Below are positions 39,557-64,000 of a DNA stretch of 64,000 nt, piece by piece. The position numbers and the translations under genes were made by a program. The stretch is from Gongronella butleri. Lineage: Eukaryota > Mucoromycota > Mucoromycetes > Mucorales > Cunninghamellaceae. The notes beneath the pieces were generated by a model. That model worked only from the letters and a program-made list of their open reading frames with translations, did no database searches and was not told where the DNA came from. The stretch is taken from NCBI GenBank assembly GCA_025201375.1, contig JAIWZP010000044.1:62001-126000 (forward strand), in the 5' to 3' direction. Within the stretch, counting starts at the first letter, position 1. Every line of letters starts with the position of its first letter.

Positions 39557-41157
39557 TTACGTGTCGTCGTCGTCATTGGGGTCCGAGTCCTGGTCATTGT
39601 CGTCGTGATTGGTTTCACTATCTGCGCCGTCGGTATCCATGAGTAGGGCCATCAATGGCAGCACATTGGCCGGTCCATCGTCGGTATCGTCACGCCGGCG
39701 CACCTTGACGTCGTCGTCATCAATGCCATCGATGCTGAGTTGCCGTCGCTTGCCAATGGTCGTGGTGCTAAAGTGCGGTGGTGCTGCATCCAGGTGCTTG
39801 GGATCCTGGTCCGTCTCGATGGATGAGAACGATGGTGACGTTGGCGACGTCGACAGGGTCGAATTGATCAGGCTGGGCACGGGCATGTCGACGTCGGCGA
39901 TGATTTCCGCGTGTGGTTGCGCAAAGAACGCGTGCTTGAGCGCGTCGTCCGCCTTTAGCCGCTGCGACGGGTTGAAAAACAGGAATTGCCGCAAGAGATC
40001 TAGCATGACTGGCGTTGCTTCCGGAATCACGGTCGCCAGCGGCTGAGGCGACATGTGTGGGAATTCAAATCCGATGCGGTGCGCGAGCTTGACGCCCTCG
40101 CGCCACTCGCCCCCGCCATCCAGCGCAGAAATCGTCGACACCGTATTGACGGGCGGCTTTTTTTCTTCAATGGTCTTGCGTCGTGCAAACCCGGGGCTCG
40201 CGCGCGGCCGATCGGCAACGCTCTTTTTACGCGCCGCAGCAACGTACCGGTTGCCAGGGCTGCCAAGCACCTTGCAGATGCAAAACAGCTGGTCAATCTC
40301 GGACTCGCCAGGAAACAGCGGCTGCCCGCAAATCAATTCAGCAAAAATCGCGCCAATGGCCCACAAATCCACAGCACTCGAATAATTGCTCGAACGCAGC
40401 AGCACTTCCGGTGCGCGATACCTACAAAAATAGAAAAAAAAGAGGGTCAGAAACCTTTTTTTTTTTTTCTTGCTTCGCGCGTTCCGCGTCGTTCCCGTGC
40501 CATCCTTTTTTTTTTTTTCATGCTCACCATCGCGTGCTGACGTATTCCGTGTAAGGTGGGTGGCTACTGGTCTCCTTGGCCAGGCCAAAGTCGGCGAGTT
40601 TGATGACGGGTGTGCCGCTGGTATAGGTGATGAGGAGGTTTTCTGGCTTGAGATCGCGGTGGAAGATGTTATTGGCGTGAATGTGGGCGACGGCTTGCAG
40701 TGTCTGGCGCATGATGATGCCCAGCTCGCTGGCAGAGAAGCGCGTGTGGTTGTCGCGCTTTTGCTTAATCCATTGGTACAGGTTGCCGCCGTCCATATGC
40801 TCCATCACAAAGCACAACTCGTGTGAAGGCGAAAACAAGATATCAAACGTTTGCACAATATGAACGTGCGTGGGTATCAGGTTGAGGATCTTGCACTCAA
40901 GCAAGCGGTCGCACTCTTCTGCAGAGTCAAACTTGCGTTTCATAATCTTGATGGCCACCTTGAAAACGTTGCATAAACGAAAGGGTCCTTGGGCGTGAGT
41001 ACTTTCGCACATGACTCCCCTTTTTTATTTTTTTGCCCTCGTCGCTTACATGTTTGCCCGTCTTTTTTTGCACTGCCTGATGCACGGAGCCAAAGGACCC
41101 CGCACCAATCACAGAAAGAAAGTTATACTCGTCGTGGGGGCATGCGTTCCGTATCAT
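39557..41157 (-). CDS. Ime2/MAK-type CMGC protein kinase
   Basis: Serine/threonine kinase of the RCK branch (MAK/ICK/MOK; fungal Ime2, Mde3, Crk1), usually linked to meiosis, morphogenesis or cilia. Three exons, ~470 residues. All catalytic motifs are intact: GAGSFGSV glycine loop, Lys in [22 protein letters not shown] in LADFGLAK, the dual-phosphorylation TEY in [32 protein letters not shown] and [20 protein letters not shown]. The [13 protein letters not shown] loop is what separates this branch from CDKs and MAPKs. A ~60-residue insert rich in Arg/Lys/Pro ([12 protein letters not shown]) interrupts the C-lobe. The C-terminus is a long acidic tail ([15 protein letters not shown]). The stop TAA overlaps a perfect GTAAGA donor, so the true end may lie in a further exon at about 39429-39464 (adding RSDWRWLKVL). 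Confidence 0.88.
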
Positions 41158-52258: not shown

Positions 52259-52558
52259 ATACCCTGCTCCTCCTCTGCCCTCTTTATTTATCTCTTTCAA
52301 GACGCTCTTGTACTATATTGCTGCAAAAACACATTATTTTAAAAAAGATTCCATTCTCAACCACCTCATGACCTGGATGCTTCCAAACAAAACTGCCGAC
52401 CTTTGTCCTGTTGGTGCACGAGGCAGCGGATGAGCCCATTGCGTTCCTGAAAAATGTTTTTTTATTTTTCCTGGCATCTTTATTTGTCTTTGTTTTTTTT
52501 TTTTTTGTCGCCTTGTCCCTTTTTTTTTTTTATTCGTGGATTTTTCTTTTTTTTTTCA
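52259..52558. other. Intergenic
   Basis: 300 bp with long T tracts just ahead of the GH81 start. No other feature. Confidence 0.45.
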
Positions 52559-55447
52559 ATGTTTTTCGTATGGATTATCATCATTTGGATGACGAGTCCA
52601 TTGTGTTTTGCCGCTAGTAGGAGAGAGGCCGCGAATGAGCGTGTGCGGGCGATGCAGAAGACAATGATTCCGTCGGTGTTTCCGACGATTGAGCACCCAT
52701 TTCCTTCGCAGTATTACAATGGGACACGTACAAGGCCAGTGCCGACAAATGCGTGGCTGTCGAATCTTTTTTACGCGAGCACGAACCACCAGGCACCGAC
52801 AATCACGGATCCGTATATTCTCCGCTTCATGGACGCGCTTGGCGACGGTCCGCCGGGCTTGTCCATTGCGCACGCACAGAAAAAGGTGTACGGTGGCTAC
52901 CCACCCATGAACAATGTGCCTGCAACTGATGTGGGATACATGATCAATCCCGTCGTCGCCGACATCCGTTTTTCCGCAAAAGAGTGGGAAAACGCATTGC
53001 CCGCGTCCTCATCGTCGTCACCCGCGCCAATGGCGCGTCAGCAGCAACAGCAAAAAGAGCAACAGCGCGTCATTTTGCGCCAACAGGTCCTTGATTGGGA
53101 TTTTTTGTGCGCCACCGTGCGATTGACCACGGCCAATGGCACGACTACGGCCACGAATGAGCTACACGTCGATTTCCCACTGTGCAAAGGCATGCCCTAC
53201 GTGACGGCATCGTATCGCAGCTTGACACCCGTCTTTTACACGCAACATGCTTTCATTTCCAAGCCGCCACCTTTGGGTTCGCCTGCACGCCACTTCACCA
53301 TCAGCCTTAATGACGACACACACTATCGCATTTATGCTGTCGATAAACCAATCGCGTGGACACTCGTGTCGCCTAATCTTCTCCAGGCAGATCGTGCGTA
53401 TACAGGCACATTGCGTATCGCCAAGGTGCCAAACCCGAAATTCGAGTCGCTGCTCGATGACCACGCGGCCAATTGGCCTGTTCGAAGCTCGATCAAGTAC
53501 TCGCCAAGGTGAGATGCTTGGTTTTCTGGATGTTTTGAGATGTTGCTTGTCACTTATTCTTTTTTTTCGCTTTTTTTTGCAGCTCTTACACGTTTGATTG
53601 GGAGACAGAGGGCGATCAGGACGAGACATTGCTTATGTATGCTCATGCGCATCACATGACATCGATGATCAACGCGTCAACGACAAGTTTGCGTTTAAGC
53701 TCAGCATCAAAAGGGATGATGCACGGCGTGGTGGGCACGTCGTGGACAATGCACGAACCCACATCCGCGATCAACCAATTGACGTGGTTTCCGACCAGGG
53801 CACGGCCCGACAAGGCCGCACGTTTCGACATTTTGGCCGCTCTTGCCCAGGATATTGATGAGGCCGATTATGACCACGAGACAAACAAGGGCGACAATTA
53901 CTTTTCGGGCAAAGGACTGCAGAAATACGCGCTTCTAGCGCTGCTGCTCAATCGGCCCGATGACACGGACATCAGAAATCCAGAGCTTGCCCTCACCAGC
54001 CTTGAAAAGCTAAAATCGGCGTTCAGCCTCTTTCTCGACAATCGTCAGCAGGATCGCTTTGCGTACGATTCGCTGTATCGCGGCGTCGTCGCTGTCAGCG
54101 GGTTGCCAGAGTCCATGGGCGGCACAGGCAACCCCAATGCCGCGTTCGGACACGCTTACTATAATGACCATCATTATCATCAAGGCTATTTTGTCGTCAC
54201 AGGTGAAAATGCGACTTTTCGTTTTTTATGCGAGTCTGACGCGTCTTTTTTTTTATTTTTGTTAGCTGCCATCATCCATTTGCTTGATCCCGAGTGGCGC
54301 GCTGACGATTTAAAACTGTGGACCGACGCGCTCGTGCGCGATGTTAATGCAAAAGACGGCGATCCTTTGTATGCACCATTCCGTCATTGGGACTGGTTCG
54401 CTGGGCACACGTGGGCAGGTACGACGCGTGTCCAAAGGCGACAAAAACCTACTGAAATGACTCATTTTGTTGGTTTTTAGGCGGCATCAAGCAAAATGGC
54501 GCTTTGGACGGCCGCGATCAAGAGTCTGTGCCCGAATCCATCAATTTTTATTGGGGTGCCAAGCTGTGGGGCATGGTCACGGGCGATCACGCCATGGAGG
54601 AGCTCGCGACACTGCAATTGAACATCATGCGCCGCACCACCTATGATTATTTCTGGCTTCTCGACCGCAATCCCAATTACCCCGTGGGCATGCGTCGCAA
54701 CAAGGTCATGGGCATCTACTTTGAACACCGGACCGACTATGTAAGACGGCAAAGGGCGGCAAAAATAACGTGACGTGTCCATTTTTGACCATTTTTTGGC
54801 TCTTTTTTTTATTAGACCACCTATTTTGGCCGGCGTTTGGAATTCATCCATGGCATCCAGCAGCTGCCCATGACGCCCATGCTGGCGGATGGCTTCAAAA
54901 CACGCGAATTTGTAAGATCGGGGGCCATTGAAAAAGAGATAAATTCGCTCATTGATATTATTTATGCGTGTAGGTGCAGCAAGAGTGGGATCAAAAGCTT
55001 GGAAAGGTGGCGCCATCCATCACGACCGGATGGGCTGGTGTTACGTACATGAATTATGCATTAATCAATCCGACAGATGCATACCACAAGCTCCGCAAGG
55101 TGCCTATGGACGATGGTCAGACGCGCGCGTACTCGCTGTATCTTGCAGCCACGCGGCCAGGCTTTGAGCATCGTGGTAAGGAAACAAAAAGCTAAAGCAA
55201 AAGCAAAAGCAACAAAAAAAAAATAGACGATGGTGGTGAGCTGAATTTTTTTTTTTTTTTTGCAGCCCTGTCGACGTTGCTTTCAGGCCACATCCGCACT
55301 CAACCTAGAGAAGGCAAATCGTATCGTGCCATGGGCGACGGCCGCCGAGGAAGCCAGCCCTTCCAGCCCGCTGACAAAAAGGTCGAGCAGAATCGCATCA
55401 TTGACATTTCGCATAATCATCACGATGACAGATACAATGGCTATTAA
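52559..55447 (+). CDS. Secreted GH81 endo-beta-1,3-glucanase
   Basis: Glycoside hydrolase family 81 endo-1,3-beta-glucanase (Eng1/Acf2 type), which cuts cell-wall glucan, for example in cell separation or growth. Eight or so exons, ~800 residues. ATG 52559 gives a clean signal peptide, [19 protein letters not shown]; upstream in-frame Mets lie in T-rich leader. The N domain has [20 protein letters not shown], the family's opening. The (alpha/alpha)6 catalytic part has [33 protein letters not shown] (catalytic Asp in YNDHHYH), the glutamate motif [20 protein letters not shown] and [10 protein letters not shown]. Later blocks are [12 protein letters not shown] and [14 protein letters not shown]. 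The last exon reads [20 protein letters not shown] and ends NGY. The N-domain carries a Ser/Gln-rich insert ([16 protein letters not shown]). No GPI or transmembrane tail is seen. Confidence 0.92.
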
Positions 55448-56614: not shown

Positions 56615-58002
56615 ATGTTTTTTTTCAGCGGGCCCAATTTCGAAGCCAAAGACATTCCTGACTTGACGAGCAAGATAGCTATCATCACTGGTGCTTCCAA
56701 TGGCGTAAGTTGGCCCGTGTCAAATGCGGCACACACGGCACATAGGGTCATGTGGCTGACAAATCTTGTTTTTTTTATCGTTGCGCAGATCGGCAAGGAG
56801 TGTGCGTTTGAAATGGCGCGCAAAGGGTGCCATTGTGTGCTTGCGTGCCGCTCGGAAGAGCGCACACGTGTGGTCATTGACGAGATTGTCAAGGTCACCG
56901 GCAATACCAAGGTCGAGTTCATGCCATTGGATCTCGCGTCATTTAAATCCGTCACCGCATTTGCAGAGGCGTACCAGGCGCGCTTTGACAAGTTGGACAT
57001 TCTGCTCAACAATGCAGGCTACCTGTGCACTGAGGGGTGGACGGTGACCGAGGATGGTACGGCCAAAATGGCGCAAAAAAGATGGTGAAATCGCCGTTTA
57101 TGCCTCAATTTCTTTTTTTTCTTTTTTTTTTTTCTCGACACGACGCAGGTCTCGAAACCACGTTCCAGATCAATTACGCCGGCAATGTGCTTCTGACATT
57201 ACTGTTGCTGCCGGTTCTGCAAAAAAGTGCCCCCAGCCGCGTCGTCAATGTCAGCTCCGACGCGCATCGCTTCATCTTTAGCTTGAACACCAAGGATTAC
57301 AATGACAAGGCCAAATACAGCAAGATGATGAGCTATGGTCGCTCAAAGGTAAAAGAAAACACGCGTCAACGCGGTGTTTTCCCGTGCTCGCGTATCGTAT
57401 TTAGGTCAATTGCTCATTTTTATGTTCATATTAGTTTGCTCTGACCATGTTCACAACTGAATTGGCTAGACGCCTCAAAAAGCATGACATCAAGGTAAGG
57501 CAGGCGCGGATTTGACTCACGCGGGCAAAGGATTTCAAATCACTCACGAAAAGCAATAAAAACAACCAAAAAAAAAAAAAACCTAGGGTGTCTACGTGAA
57601 CAGCCTCCATCCAGGCTCAGTGCAGACAGACATGCTTGACAAGGTCAGTGGTTATGAATTTCTTCAAGGGATCGTGCGGTTCCTCTCGGGCTCGATCAAG
57701 CCCGACCAGGGTGCATTGACTCAACTATATGTGGCCGTGAGTCCCGAAATCGAGCAAAAAGAGCTCACTGGTGAATACTTTGTAAGCATTGTTGGAAAAA
57801 AAAAAAAAGTGAGAGACAGAGAGAGAGAGCGAGTTCCCAATTGACGCGCTCAATTCTCTTTTTCTAGGTGCCAATTGCGAAATTGAGCTCTTCCAATAGC
57901 GGCAGTCGCAATGAGGCCCATGCTACCGAGCTCTGGAACTACACACAGGATATTTTGAGCGAAAAAGTGCCTGGATTCATGCGTTCGTCTCTGAAAAAAT
58001 AA
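56615..58002 (+). CDS. Short-chain dehydrogenase (retinol-dehydrogenase/WWOX-like)
   Basis: NAD(P)-dependent oxidoreductase of the classical SDR family, nearest by motif to RDH/WWOX-like or light-induced SDRs. Six exons, about 310 residues. TSKIAIITGASNGIGKECAF holds the TGxxxGIG cofactor motif, split by an intron after SNG. Then come VLACRSEERT (the Arg suggests NADPH), MPLDLASFKSV, DILLNNAGYL, INYAGNVLLTLLLLPVL, VVNVSSDAH with the catalytic Ser, and MMSYGRSKFALTMF with YGRSK (YxxxK). VYVNSLHPGSVQTDM is the conserved PG motif. The C-terminus is VPGFMRSSLKK. All catalytic residues are present. The N-terminus (MFFFSGPNFEAKDIPDL) is short with no membrane anchor. Substrate unknown. The gene is convergent with the receptor kinase, 342 bp apart. 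Confidence 0.9.
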
Positions 58003-58344
58003 AAAGCTGTAGTTGTACCATTGATCCCTCGCCGAAAATATAATTTATTATTTTGTATCGACATTGCATTTTGGTGTGCAGTTGGCTTGAATGGGTAAAA
58101 ATAGGCGTTTCTGAGATAAATCTCGTCGACGATTTTTGATCGATTACCAACTTTTTTAATTTTTTTCTGAGACGAGAAGATGAGAAACATTTAAAACTAG
58201 GCATGAGCGTGACATTGTGGTCATTGGATAGAGTGCAACGACAATTTTTTTGAAACCCCCCTTTTTTTCGACATTATCGGCCGCCATGATCATGTTGAAT
58301 TCATTTTTTATTGTTTTATCACACAAATTGAAAAGTCTATGAGT
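58003..58344. other. Convergent 3' flanks
   Basis: 342 bp between the SDR and receptor stops. 58100-58240 contains TTTAATTTTTTTCTGAGACG and a following ACATT..ACTAGGCATGA stretch that resembles R3 blocks near 45585. This is weak evidence for a repeat remnant. Confidence 0.35.
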
Positions 58345-61300
58345 CTAATTTCGCAAGTCGGGCGGGATATGATCTTCGTTTGGGGCGGATTTGGCGCGCG
58401 GGCGTGTGGCGGTGAATGTGGGGCACGTCTGTGTGAATGTGTGCAGGGCGGCTTCCAGCTCCTCTTTGCGCACGGGCTTGCTGACGTAGCCGTTCATGCC
58501 TGCGATGCACACAAAAAAAAATCAAGTTGTCCTGTCAGTATGTCTAATTCCCGTTTTGCGTCCTTTTGCGATTTTGTTCTTTTTTTTTTTACCGGCATTG
58601 ATACATTTCTCCTTATCGCCTGCCATGACACACGCCGTCATGGCAATGATGTACGGCTGTATGGCGTCGGATGCTTGTTCCTGGCGGATCTTTGCAGTGG
58701 CCTCGAGGCCGTCCATTTCGGGCATGAAGACGTCCATGAAGATGAGCTGGATGGGCCGGCCCTCGTTTTGGGATTCCGTGTACGCGTTCCAAGCCTCGCG
58801 GCCATTTTGGGCCATTTGGCACGTCAGACCCATGCGTTTGAGCATCATTTGCAGCACTTTTTGATTGACCGGGTTGTCATCGACAAGCAGTGCGCGAACG
58901 GACGACATATCATTGTCGCACGACAGATTGTCGTCGTCATCGGCCGATTGGGCGCCATTGGAGACGACCGCTGCAGTAGTACTGGACGTGATTGGCGCAC
59001 CAGGCGTCGCATTGAGGAGACTCGCCGGGCTTGTTGGCGAAAATGAGGATGCTGATGGTGCCGAGATCAAATTGAGCGACGCGAGCGACGAATTGCTGAG
59101 GACGGTGGTATTGGCCACGGACGGCGTGGTGGTCACAGTCCCTGATGCGGTGGAAGTGTGGAAGAACGTCGGAATGGATGAATTGGCGCGACGATGGCGC
59201 GGACACATGGTAGAAGCAGATGCCGCCAGCGTATTTCCGGTCTGGCTACGCACCCAAATGTCGTAGCTGTGATTCAATGTTGGTGGATGATGCCAATTGG
59301 CAGCTGTGGACGCGCAATTTGAACCTGTAGACGTGGAAAAGGGCGTGAATGGCGATGTTGAAGGGCCCGATGGCGACGGCATGGGCACCGTGGACGAAAT
59401 CGCGTGCAGGCATTGAATCAAATTGGAATTTTTAAATGGTTTGACCAACTGCTGGTGATTTGCCACGGACAAGGCGTGCGCGTTGCTATTTTGAAGTTCC
59501 GCCGCGTCGCTATTGGCTGTTGTCTTTGCTGCGGCAGCGCATGCGGTTGTGCCGCCTGTGCACGGCAACGTGCTATTGGACCCTGGCGTGGAGCCTGGTT
59601 GGGTATGGGTATTGTGATTATGGTGATGTAATGCATAGGCATGGTGCTGGTGGGCATTTGCCATAAAGGCACGACTTGCGCGGTACGAATGGCGCGATCT
59701 GAGGCGCACGTCGGTCACGCACAACGTGGGGATCCAGGAAAACACGCTGGCGTGCTGGTGCAATGCCTCGAGGACCATCTGGCTTGTCATTGTGTGCGAC
59801 GTCTTGCTGTCATGGCCGTTTTCGCCATTTATGTGCGATTGTGTCTGCTGTGTCTGCTCCTCTGGCGCCTCTGGCCCATGGAAAGACGCGTGATCCACGA
59901 TTTCAAGGTCCATGTCGACAATCAGGCTTGTCGGGCTTGCATCCTCGCCGGACATCGCTTTCTCGTTGCCAGACGTCAGCTTTTCAAATGCTTCCTCATA
60001 TGTCAGCGTCGTTGGCGTCATTCCAAGATTCGTCAGCAGCGTCTGCCATTGCTGCCGCACGTCGTCGCGCCCAGCAATCACCCACGGCCGCCCATTCGCC
60101 TGCACTAGCTCGTCCAATTGATTGTGCTCCCCAAACGTAGGGCTTGATTCATCGATCGGCAGCTTGACACAAAACCAAAACGTCGAGCCTTGATTCTCCT
60201 CGGATTCTACCCACTGCAGCATGTGATAAAAAAAAAAAAAAGAATGAGATCTGCAAAAGGTGCGCCTTTTTTCTTTTTTCTTTTCTTTTTTTCCTCTCCT
60301 CTTGCTTTTTTTTTACCATGTCGCCACCCATCTTTCTGCACAATTGCCTGCTAATGGCAAGACCAAGACCTGTGCCACCGTAATTGCGCGTTGTGGACGC
60401 GTCGACTTGCGAAAATGACTTGAAAAGCTTGTTTGACTTTGATTTGGGAATCCCGATGCCTGTGTCGCTCACCGAAAAGTAAATGGGCACAGTGTCCATC
60501 GGGTTGTAATCCAGGTCCGCATTGGGCGTCGTTGTCAGCCATTGCGGCTGATATTCATCCACATCTTCGTCCATTTCTTCATTTTCTTTGCCTTGGTGCT
60601 TGGCACTGATCCGGATGACCACTGATCCGCGCTGTGTGAACTTGAAGGCATTGGACAACCTAAAGAACAAGGGAAACAATCAGAAAAACGCGATTCAGTT
60701 TTGTAAAACGCGCTTTTTCTTACAAATTGAGGATAATTTGACGCAAACGCACGAGATCGCCGTACACTTGAATGGGCGTCTCTGGATCAATGCAATAGTA
60801 CAGCACCAATCCCTTGCTCATGTAATTGGACGACATGAGCTTCATGGCACTCTCAATGACAAAGGTCTAAAGAAGAAAAAAAGAGTGAGTGCGTTTTTTC
60901 CTACGTGCTTGTATGCACGCTTACCAAGTCGAGTTTGCTCCTTTCCAATGTGAGTCGTCCCGATTCAATCTTGGAATAGTCCAGAATATCGTCAATCAGG
61001 GCAATCAGGTGGTTGCCTATGGAAGAATGCGATGAGATGCGCCTTTTTTTCGATTTTTTTTTCGATTTTTGTACCCGAGGATTCGATGGTCTCTGCGCAT
61101 TCGTACAGGTCCGTTGGTAAATCGCTCTCCATGAGCATGCGCGACATGCCAATCACGGCGTTCATGGGCGTCCTGATCTCTGTGGAGCAGAAAAACAAAG
61201 CATGAAGCAATCACCATCACACGCGCGGTGTCCATTTTTTTTTTACCATGCGACATGTTTGCAAGGAAATTCTGCTTGGATGCAGCGGCAGCTTCGGCAA

Positions 61301-63994
61301 TCTCTTTGGCGTCGGATAAATCTATGTAAATGAGCAAAACGGCGCGTCAACACTTTTTTTTTGTGTTTTTATATCTTTTCTTGCCTTTCAAGAGCTTTTG
61401 CGTGCGCGCACGCTCCGATTCCAACTCTTTGGTTCTCTGCACGAGATTTTCGGTGCGCTGACGCACCAGCTTTTCCATGTTGTTGGCGTATTTTTCAAGC
61501 TAAATTGCAAAAACAGCAAAAATGAGCGCGTAAAACACGAGGTTCGTTTTTATTACCAGAATGGCCATGTTGTCGACGACATTGTCCGAGCGGAAAAGAT
61601 TGGGATCAATGGATTTGACGCGGTTCTTCATCAAAAAAAAAAAAACATCAGAATTGCATGAGAAATGCGTCATGAGCGATTGGTGCACTTTTTTTTCTTA
61701 CGCCAATGGTGGAGAATGTTGGTCTTGAGGCTGGGTTGCGCTGTAGACATGCAAGGATGATCATATTAAAGTGCTCGGCATAGTCGTCCTTGCGCGAAAA
61801 GGCGGGATATTGGACTTTGGCCTGCAGCAGCTCAAAGATGCTCTCCGGCGACATCCCGTCGTCCAATAGCGATTGGTAGGGCAACTCCCGCGTGATGATT
61901 TCGTTCATGATGATGCCCGCGCTGAAATTTTCGCCGAAAAAAAAGGCAAAAAGATTAAAAAAAAGTTCATTCAGGGAAAATGGGCATATTTTTTGCTTTT
62001 TTTTCTTTTTTTTTTTTTTTTTTTTTTTTTTACCTGTAAACATCTCCGGCCTTGGATGGCCGCGAGACGTACATGCCCATGGGTGAGCGCGACACGGCTT
62101 CGGGCGCCATCCAGAGGAGCGAGCGCGTGTAGCGCACGACATTTATCTCGTCAAAGCCAACATCGGCAACATCCATGTCGACCGTGGGTGTGGGCGCGCC
62201 AACGCCTGCGCCGCCCAAGTAATAGTGATGATAATAGTGGTGATTGTAGTGATGGGTGCGTGTGGACGTTGGAATCAAGATGGGGTCCATCTGCGACCGT
62301 CTCACACGATTTAAACCATAGTCTGAGATCTTCAATTCCCACTTGTTGGAGATGAAGCACGAGCTTGACGTCAGACACCCGTGCACCATGAATTTGGAGC
62401 GGTGCAAGAACGCCATGCCTTGAATCAGGTCATTGATCAGCGAAAATCGGAAAATCCATGTCAAATCGATGTCTGGATCCGCAAGCACATCTGCCAGGCA
62501 CCCTTTAGCACAATATTCTTTGATAAAAAAAATAGGATCAAGCTCGGGTGTGAAAAAAAGAGAATGACGCGTGTTTTTTTCATTTTTTTACAAAACAACG
62601 CGTGTTTTTTTTTTTTACCTTCGACAATGAATGTGCGCTGTGGCTCCAAGATCATGCCCACAAACTCGACGAGATTCTGATGTCTTGTTTCTTTCATAAG
62701 CGCCGCCTCGGTGCGCATCATCTTGTCAATGCGAATGCGCCGATTGCCGATTTGCTTGACAAAAACGGGCAAATTATGCCTATAGCACTTTGTATAGATG
62801 AGATTGGCGCTCTCGCTCGGCTTGCGCGAGAAATATTGCTGATGGCTTTTTTAAAAAAGTGAAAAATGAATAAGCGCGTGAGTTGTTTTTGGAAACGCTT
62901 AAATACCTTTTTCTAATGGTCTTTGCAATTGGTACGACGGTGTGCGACAATTGCAAGTCGAGGGACCGTTTGAGCTCGGATGTGTTGCGGAACGAAAGTT
63001 TTTCGGGCGATGCGAGGTCGTTTTCGTCGCCGAACCAACTGTTTGTGGTCTTTTTCTCATCAGGGGGCATGGACACCGTGAGCGAGCCCTTTTCATAGGC
63101 ACTGAGGACCTCGAGGTCATTTTTTGTGTGGCGTCGCGACAGCGGGGGCGCGTCTGGATGCGTGGGTGTCTCATTTTCCTCATTTTTCTCATTTTCGCGA
63201 GTTTCAGCATGTCCATCGGCAGCCATTGCACCATCTTTGGTATCATTGTTGTTGCTGCCATTGTCGTCATCGTCGGTGGAAACGTGTCCGATCTTTTCCT
63301 TGATCAATTCGTCAAAGGTGAGGAGCCAATTCTCGTCTCTTAGGCGCTGGCGACGCAGCAGGTATTTTCGAACGCGCCACACAATCAAGGCGCACACGGC
63401 CATGGTGAAAAAGATACAGACGGGGACAAGGATGGCGACCATAGTCTTTCGCCTCTCTTCGTTTTGATCGAGCTCGTACGCGTGGCAATGCGTGTTTCCT
63501 GAGCCCTCGACGCATGGCGAGCACGCAGATGATCCCGGCACCGCATACGTGCCATACCCGCATGCAATGCATTGATGCTGGTCGAATTGGTCTGTGTACG
63601 TGTTGGCCGGGCATGGCAGGCACTGGATGGACAGCCGCGTTCGCTGCTGGCTGCTGTCCATGCAGAAATAATCCGAAGCAAGCTGATTGTAATAGCTGCC
63701 CGGCGTGCAAATATGATTGACAATCGGTGCAGACAGCTGCGTGTGCATCCACGGCTGGTGCGAAATCTTGTTGGCCAGCAAGACCGTCAAAAGCGATAAA
63801 AATCCCAATGAAAAGAGATTGAGGTACCTTTTTAAAGAAACCCGCAATCAATAAAAGAGTACAATGAGAAAAAGATGACTTTTTCATGCATCGCGTCGCG
63901 TCGCGTCGCGCCAGAGTTGTCGTTAAGGGCGCTGTGTCCTTTTTTTCTCCCTCTTTTTTTTTTTTTACCAAAATCGCTTGATTCTTCCATTCAT
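58345..63994 (-). CDS. Receptor hybrid histidine kinase with guanylyl-cyclase-receptor-like kinase-homology domain
   Basis: About 14 exons and ~1,530 residues. Exon 1 (63994-63969, MNGRIKRF) splices at 63828 to give [19 protein letters not shown], a strong signal peptide. The ectodomain has paired cysteines ([30 protein letters not shown], cut here into CLPCPANTY and CIACGYGTY), an ephrin/TNFR-like module. One span ([20 protein letters not shown]) and a W-containing juxtamembrane ([13 protein letters not shown]) follow. The kinase-homology domain (about 320-620) has [49 protein letters not shown] (HG replaces HRD), ISDYG and WMAPEA. The linker is [19 protein letters not shown]. The histidine kinase has [19 protein letters not shown] (His ~712), NLLSNAFKF, DTGIGIP and [13 protein letters not shown]. 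Then come a degenerate receiver, a Ser/Thr-rich linker and a canonical receiver with [10 protein letters not shown] and [18 protein letters not shown], ending [10 protein letters not shown]. Expected role: membrane sensor feeding a phosphorelay. The ligand is unknown. Confidence 0.88.
61322..61384 (-). other. GC-AG intron in the receptor kinase gene
   Basis: The junction between the coiled-coil linker and the DHp region uses donor AG|GCAAGA (61384-61379) and acceptor TACATAG. Splicing there gives [15 protein letters not shown] in frame. The other introns I resolved in this gene use GT donors. Confidence 0.75.
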
Positions 63995-64000
63995 AAAGGC

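Follow-up and report, generated by a model that had tools for sequence, protein, structure and literature searches.

A Mucoromycota hybrid histidine kinase with a kinase-homology domain and signalling helix of the receptor-guanylyl-cyclase type

The window analysed here, a 64,000 nt stretch of the Gongronella butleri genome (C50:62001-126000; the genome comprises 33.0 Mb in 110 contigs), contains on its minus strand a gene for a predicted membrane receptor. We consider it probable that this gene represents a family of Mucoromycota receptor hybrid histidine kinases, in which a catalytically dead kinase-homology domain (KHD) of the receptor-guanylyl-cyclase (RGC) type and a signalling helix relay the ligand state to a histidine kinase. 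The domain order is two periplasmic-binding-protein (PBP)-type domains, a Cys-rich stretch, one transmembrane (TM) helix, an RGC-type KHD, the signalling helix, HisKA, HATPase, a pseudo-receiver and a receiver. By its output domain the protein is a hybrid histidine kinase (HHK) and not a receptor guanylyl cyclase, although it may work like both, and the architecture is genuine, widespread and, as far as we searched, undescribed.

By what means receptor cyclases relay a hormone signal from their dead kinase domain to the enzyme is a long-standing question. In the scheme that we infer for the fungal protein, two extracellular PBP-type domains on one TM helix would bind a ligand, perhaps a small, sugar-like solute, and the dead KHD would hand the ligand state to the parallel coiled coil of the signalling helix, which would run into the DHp helix in heptad register. 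Ligand binding would re-set the dimer of KHD and coil and so switch autophosphorylation of His1332, from which the phosphate would pass to Asp2054 of the C-terminal receiver, with the pseudo-receiver perhaps regulating the transfer, and on to an HPt protein and response regulators. Since the enzyme differs while the dead kinase and helix are kept, the parts in common should form the core of the switch, and the histidine kinase would offer a different, tractable read-out of a receptor-cyclase-type switch.

Gene structure and domain order

Splicing of the window sequence joined positions 63994..58345 of the minus strand into a single frame, open for 1531 aa and consistent in its phases. A preliminary description of this DNA had proposed one gene from receptor to receiver, starting at 63994; the continuity of the frame stands, but the start was wrong, as the frame extends beyond the window end, with exon 9 cut by the window edge and eight further exons on contig C50. 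The full gene model has 22 exons, encodes 2151 aa and starts with an ATG at extended window coordinate 66662 (C50:128662), and its introns are all GT-AG except one GC-AG. The features within the window are as follows:

63969..64000, minus strand: part of exon 9 inside the window (exon to 64072, past the window), encoding part of the second PBP-like domain; gene model, colinear in P0002
62907..63827, minus strand: exon 10, with the end of the second PBP-like domain, Cys-rich stretch, single TM and acidic juxtamembrane linker
63485-63709, minus strand: Cys-rich stretch, within exon 10
63374-63445, minus strand: single TM (aa ~757-780), within exon 10; hydropathy
61602..62799, minus strand: KHD (aa 952-1254), exons 11-13 and the start of 14; Pfam, PDB sequence search, trees
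62755-62757, 62375-62383 and 62315-62323, minus strand: KHD beta3 Lys, HGC in place of HRD, and DYG, respectively
61320..61583, minus strand: linker and signalling helix (aa 1261-1308) with doubled Arg-Thr motif
61322..61384, minus strand: GC-AG intron between exons 15 and 16, at the junction of signalling helix and DHp; same splicing in P0121
60955..61277, minus strand: DHp/HisKA (aa 1323-1388), predicted phospho-acceptor His1332 at 61248-61250; Pfam
60166..60764, minus strand: HATPase_c (aa 1433-1576); Pfam
59398..60090, minus strand: putative pseudo-receiver with long low-complexity insert (aa 1602-1832); CheY-like predicted fold in homologue P0124
58435..58896, minus strand: receiver (aa 2000-2122), predicted phospho-acceptor Asp2054 at 58732-58734; Pfam
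58345..58499, minus strand: last exon (22) with stop codon

The spliced protein contains the KHD motifs quoted in the preliminary description, and Pfam matched PK_Tyr_Ser-Thr, HisKA, HATPase_c and Response_reg in it. The guanylate cyclase domain PF00211 was not among the Pfam families listed for the receptor protein, nor were GAF and HAMP at 1e-3.

The public G. butleri protein BC940DRAFT_308004 is a 100% match to the gene, and the public model P0121 (1106 aa) runs from mid-KHD to the stop with splicing identical letter for letter to ours, so that the public annotation already unites the histidine kinase and the rear half of the KHD in a single gene; as P0121 begins within the KHD, the public model falls short of the whole gene. 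This late start and partial coverage might be taken to mean that a receptor gene and a histidine-kinase gene had been read together, an artefact that we find hardly credible. P0121 joins the rear KHD to the kinase, the Cunninghamella protein P0002 (1988 aa) is colinear with the gene model through PBP, TM, KHD and kinase, also where the sequence passes over the window edge, and 99 of the 102 family rows of at least 1600 aa (window protein included) carry a homologous ectodomain. A second copy in the genome, known by tblastn (L021:664-7904; C65:140163-147403), likewise has the order PBP, Cys-rich, TM, KHD, signalling helix, HisKA, HATPase, receiver. Two misjoined genes were thus rejected on the P0121 join, the colinearity of P0002 and the order in the second copy; separate receptor and kinase transcripts, which would have spoken against the fusion, are not indicated so far as this can be checked, given that the annotated gene P0121 covers the kinase together with part of the KHD.

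Kinship and catalytic loss of the kinase-homology domain

Against PDB sequences, the KHD alone scored 125 bits with ANP receptor 1, 72 with GC-C and 66 with Abl, and the KHD with its linker 156, 79 and 66 bits. For family counts we used a fungal set of 124 rows (the window protein, the 115 best search rows and 8 from a length-limited search, several of them partial models), in which P0121 is the same gene as the window's, and P0129 and P0133, both histidine-kinase pieces, were counted solely in the KHD residue tally. The receptor-cyclase set of 102 rows (rows down to P0252 with P0118, minus P0207) is rich in carp-like isoforms, and the counts drawn from it are therefore not independent.

A tree of the kinase columns of 56 rows, hand-picked from the searches with two kinase frames of the genome, grouped 23 fungal KHDs with 23 from receptor cyclases, apart from 10 ordinary kinases (99/97), the latter being the only ones compared and all from the same searches or genome. 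The 23 fungal KHDs formed one clade (100/100) with both Mucorales and Mortierella-type rows inside. A smaller tree of 49 rows (23 + 21 + 5; five ordinary rows and two GC-C rows removed, two long rows still in) again placed fungal and receptor-cyclase KHDs apart from ordinary kinases (97/91). A constraint that put Fes, FGFR and an MLK-like kinase into one group with the fungal KHDs was rejected (p 0.0049). The PDB scores and trees agree with the earlier assignment of the KHD to the RGC type, subject to one grouping weighed below, and in the tree check that had been suggested for it the fungal KHDs did not fall among ordinary kinases. When the KHD fold predicted by AlphaFold for the homologue P0124 (1013 aa) was structurally re-aligned, the intracellular domain of apo GC-A came closest by identity (30%), a first place that rests on identity more than on Z because Z differences below 1 are ties among several kinases; the model has a mean pLDDT of 72 and a pTM of 0.43, and its domain packing is therefore unreliable.

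The residues of kinase catalysis have been lost. The beta3 Lys, HRD Asp and DFG Asp are kept together in 0/124 fungal rows and in 1/102 receptor cyclases; the window KHD has K, C and D at these positions, keeping the beta3 Lys and DYG with HGC instead of HRD. Of the 123 fungal rows that have a residue at the HRD Arg position, 120 show Gly, as do all 102 receptor-cyclase rows. In every one of the 46 fungal rows with the HRD Asp retained, the DFG Asp is replaced by Gly or Ser. The KHD had been described as a pseudokinase, and HGC for HRD together with the absence of a full triad throughout the fungal rows supports this. The kinase fold and the two residues retained in the window protein are what could be said for a KHD with Ser/Thr/Tyr kinase activity towards the histidine-kinase half or some other protein, but with these losses we regard such activity as very improbable and rejected it. 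A His/Tyr-rich insert was observed in the KHD activation segment (window 62215-62275), which was not seen in Cunninghamella P0002.

Signalling helix, ectodomain and histidine-kinase output

The KHD is followed by a helix of the LEKYANN-LV-RT kind, as in receptor cyclases (for example SIMDNMVSMLEKYAHNLEDIVADRT in P0155), so the linker was correctly recognised in the preliminary description as a cyclase-type signalling helix. The strict pattern was matched by 118/124 fungal rows versus 61/102 receptor-cyclase rows. The distance from the alpha-I Arg to the Arg-Thr of the helix was 41, 43 or 45 residues in 102/118 fungal rows; of the 61 receptor-cyclase rows matching the pattern, 53 have a distance of 43 or 44. 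A second Arg-Thr lies seven residues after the first in 123/124 fungal rows versus 0/102 receptor cyclases, and the next Leu-Leu was found at +21 in 92 fungal rows (+20 in 1, pattern missing in 31) as against +14 in 49 receptor-cyclase rows (+4 in 1, missing in 52), which makes the fungal helix one heptad longer.

On the kinase side the spacing is almost fixed, with 48 residues from the first Arg-Thr to the phospho-His in 115/118 fungal rows and 41 from the second in 120/123. Among the best 80 of 591 bacterial kinase loci, 1 lacked an in-frame H-box, 58 lacked xRTxxL over a range of 80 residues, and the other 21 gave 22 sites, of which 19 lay at 27, 34, 41, 48 or 62 residues, equal to 6 modulo 7 (chance 9e-14 if sites are independent); this figure is an indication only, as the query used to choose the loci included the helix, and one of the sites in phase is atypical. 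Within the limit of this biased sample, the fungal helix appears to join its kinase in the phase of bacterial signalling-helix kinases. A coil switch may work by heptad register, and the ligand-driven rotation through pseudokinase and helix that had been proposed earlier would be in keeping with the anatomy and the register.

The first PBP domain is a Peripla_BP_4 domain (Pfam, E 1.7e-12), the sole PBP family above its cut-off, and its nearest PDB sequence is a CUT2 monosaccharide-binding protein (5.6e-9). From its pattern we read a second PBP-type domain ahead of the Cys-rich stretch, the latter giving an Ephrin_rec_like match below the family cut-off (Pfam). The Cys-rich ectodomain of the preliminary description is therefore present in part, since the ectodomain also holds two PBP-like domains. 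Its signal peptide at 63994 was not sustained: the stretch is hydrophobic in just 8/116 measurable relatives and the frame continues upstream, and we read it as the C-terminal helix of the second PBP-type domain. The real signal peptide is likely MWPIVLLIYAFVAIHVHVHA (aa 1-20), judged by hydropathy. The single TM stretch, by hydropathy alone, is hydrophobic in 116/116 relatives measured. The ANF receptor ectodomain PF01094 was not among the Pfam families listed at E up to 1, and by phmmer (1e-5) the fungal ectodomain was related to that of 0/102 receptor cyclases. A genome search with PF13407 gave no match at the receptor gene, where the PBP domain is split by introns, and a weak, below-cut-off match at the second copy.

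The output half has the residues of a hybrid histidine kinase. In fungal rows holding the respective column, the His (123/123), N (115/115), G1 Asp (116/116) and F (116/116) positions are invariant, with one G2 Gly replaced by Arg in 1/116, and the DD, D, T and K of the receiver do not vary across the 106-110 rows that have these positions. By these box and receiver residues the protein qualifies as an HHK, with His1332 and Asp2054 as predicted phospho-acceptors. Between the ATPase and the C-terminal receiver lies a degenerate receiver with a CheY-like fold in the P0124 model (718-850, mostly pLDDT 81-91 outside a loop), for which Pfam gave no match in the window protein. In a quick tree of 96 rows, 9 family members grouped with 3/83 bacterial rows (SH-aLRT 95, no bootstrap), apart from 4 other histidine kinases of the genome; we draw no origin of the histidine-kinase half from it, as the bacterial rows were chosen by similarity to the family.

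Several observations weigh against the scheme of an RGC-type KHD and helix that switch a histidine kinase. A constraint tying the fungal KHDs to the ordinary kinase P0131 alone was not rejected (p 0.074), and in the length-limited protein search the best non-fungal match, a tardigrade ANP-receptor-like protein with 63 bits, leads P0131 (57) and Fes (49) by a small margin, a weak point of the assignment. The D-N pair before the helix occurs in at most 27/123 fungal rows, the others mostly having Gly or Ser, as against N in 60/70 receptor cyclases, so the likeness of the joint to receptor cyclases is not general. The varying distance from KHD to Arg-Thr (41, 43 or 45) leaves the KHD side of the helix without one fixed phase. 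The beta3 Lys is Arg in 56/119 fungal rows and the DFG Asp is kept in just 25 of the 124 with a residue at that position, hence ATP binding by the KHD cannot be general, and any role of ATP in the switch would be a putative one. The bacterial loci were the best 80 by likeness to a helix-containing query, and one of the 19 in-phase sites (L084) is not signalling-helix-like. In the P0124 model the helix (384-423) and the DHp helices that follow have pLDDT values of ~46-68, so the model says nothing firm on their continuity. Finally, the second PBP-like domain had no Pfam match and no PDB relative by sequence.

Some of these points would suit convergence, in which an ordinary fungal kinase of the TKL type, situated next to a histidine kinase, became inactive and grew similar to RGC KHDs, with the helix derived from bacterial-type kinases. 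Helices of the LE-...-LE-LV-RT kind are already found in bacterial histidine kinases, and the P0131 result, the ten ordinary kinases compared and the rarity of the D-N pair fit as well. We nevertheless hold convergence to be improbable, in view of the tree support (99/97 and 97/91), the rejected grouping with Fes, FGFR and the MLK-like kinase, an ANP receptor score nearly twice the bits of any ordinary kinase in PDB, and the change of the HRD Arg to Gly common to fungal rows and receptor cyclases.

Distribution, known systems and origin

The best 115 search rows belong, as we assigned them from their names, only to Mucoromycotina or Mortierellomycotina genera, after which E jumps from 1e-88 to 1e-41; the search scored 8000 candidates in a length range, and this does not imply absence outside these fungi. 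Record names among the best rows include 'histidine kinase', 'Guanylate cyclase', 'RGC/RGC protein kinase' and 'Receptor-type guanylate cyclase gcy-13', others being unnamed. Labels of 'guanylate cyclase' thus sit on Mucoromycota entries without a listed cyclase domain (P0013, P0019, P0113 and P0126). The G. butleri genome has 7 HisKA matches and one HPt. Its two PF00211 cyclase genes, L022 (C70) and L023 (C57), each carry the cyclase after a PP2C domain; we take them to be adenylyl cyclases of the yeast kind, and a query of the genome with the KHD plus kinase listed nothing at either locus.

Animal receptor guanylyl cyclases (ANP receptor 1/GC-A, GC-C) resemble the fungal family in having a PBP-type ectodomain, an RGC-type pseudokinase KHD and an Arg-Thr signalling helix in the same order, and they have one TM. 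They differ from it in output, which in the fungi is HisKA-HATPase-pseudoREC-REC with no cyclase, in the ectodomain, which in the fungi is tandem and of the Peripla_BP_4 type instead of PF01094, and in the helix, where the fungal proteins have the extra heptad with the second Arg-Thr. ShkA of Caulobacter (6qrj) is not known to have an ectodomain or KHD. Among fungal HHKs, a sensor domain related to Ser/Thr kinases belongs to group X, whose members are soluble and have GAF; unlike these, the present family has a TM, a PBP ectodomain and an RGC-type KHD, with no GAF listed.

Statements on the following papers hold for the passages retrieved from each. Fungal HHKs with a Ser/Thr-kinase-related domain in the sensor part exist (PMC6944256, PMC4965123), and the HHK groups in these passages and those of PMC8510515 include none described with a receptor-cyclase KHD. 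Sln1 and the group VI HHKs are likewise membrane receptor histidine kinases with a signalling helix, but have HAMP (PMC1592074), where the present family has a KHD before the helix and no HAMP listed. The retrieved text of the same paper places a signalling helix after a Ser/Thr-type kinase domain solely in animal receptor cyclases and assigns all fungal helices to the Sln1 kind, a rule to which this family is an exception. The family also adds PBP-type single-pass receptors to fungi, in contrast to a 2019 survey whose retrieved passages report no architectures typical of receptor kinases there (PMC6733946), and those of PMC8778642 state that fungi have no described guanylate cyclases. Receptors of Physarum and Acanthamoeba are similarly TM proteins uniting kinase domains and a cyclase, but with the cyclase between two kinase domains, and no histidine kinase is mentioned in the passages concerned (PMC4758236). 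Some unprecedented HHKs with TM helices were reported, without further description in the text read, from early-diverging fungi, Mortierella being among the fungi covered (PMC5285503); our literature search found no description of the architecture in the passages retrieved, and it may be drawn in figure 2 of that paper, on HHKs of early-diverging fungi.

Four holozoan receptor cyclases (P0118, P0152 and P0154 from EukProt Opistho-2, and P0153) share the KHD and all end in PF00211; P0118 matched the strict helix pattern, and P0152, P0153 and P0154 did not. The last three carry three different solute-binding ectodomains (OpuAC, ANF_receptor and Bmp, respectively) on the KHD-cyclase chassis, which is thus modular.

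The fungal KHDs may be either sister to receptor cyclases or nested in them. The best tree placed them inside receptor cyclases, and receptor cyclases were kept on one side of a branch in 0/200 bootstrap trees, with both row sets; however, the nesting is forced by none of the starred branches, and monophyly of the receptor cyclases was not rejected (p 0.416). The proposal that a cyclase was replaced by a two-component kinase therefore stands in so far as a complete hybrid histidine kinase occupies the cyclase position, while the replacement itself may have taken place, the bootstrap trees leaning towards it.

The nesting, the restriction of the best 115 rows to two groups of fungi and an ectodomain unrelated to those of receptor cyclases would also suit lateral transfer or exon shuffling, by which a holozoan RGC KHD entered a Mucoromycota ancestor and was fused to a resident histidine kinase, as opposed to common opisthokont descent. 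We regard this as unlikely, though it deserves more weight than convergence: the nesting is not forced and would also fit an old receptor cyclase whose output changed in the fungal line, and the 23 fungal KHDs form one clade of Mucorales and Mortierella-type rows. Descent from an ancestral opisthokont receptor is a tentative suggestion that we find easier to entertain. A PBP ectodomain, TM, pseudokinase and helix present before the animal/fungal split would have made up a portable, output-neutral switch, to which a cyclase was coupled in Holozoa and a histidine kinase in Mucoromycota, the latter joined in heptad register by one added heptad. If such a switch existed, the KHD would be a general allosteric transmitter and not a cyclase-specific part.

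Elsewhere in the window, a short-chain-dehydrogenase-like gene (56700-58005, plus strand; translation, by eye) converges on the 3' end of the receptor gene, a frame at 52451-53509 of the plus strand has a glycosyl hydrolase family 81 domain, and a 415-aa frame at 39560-40804 of the minus strand has a partial Pkinase match (profile 161-263 only).

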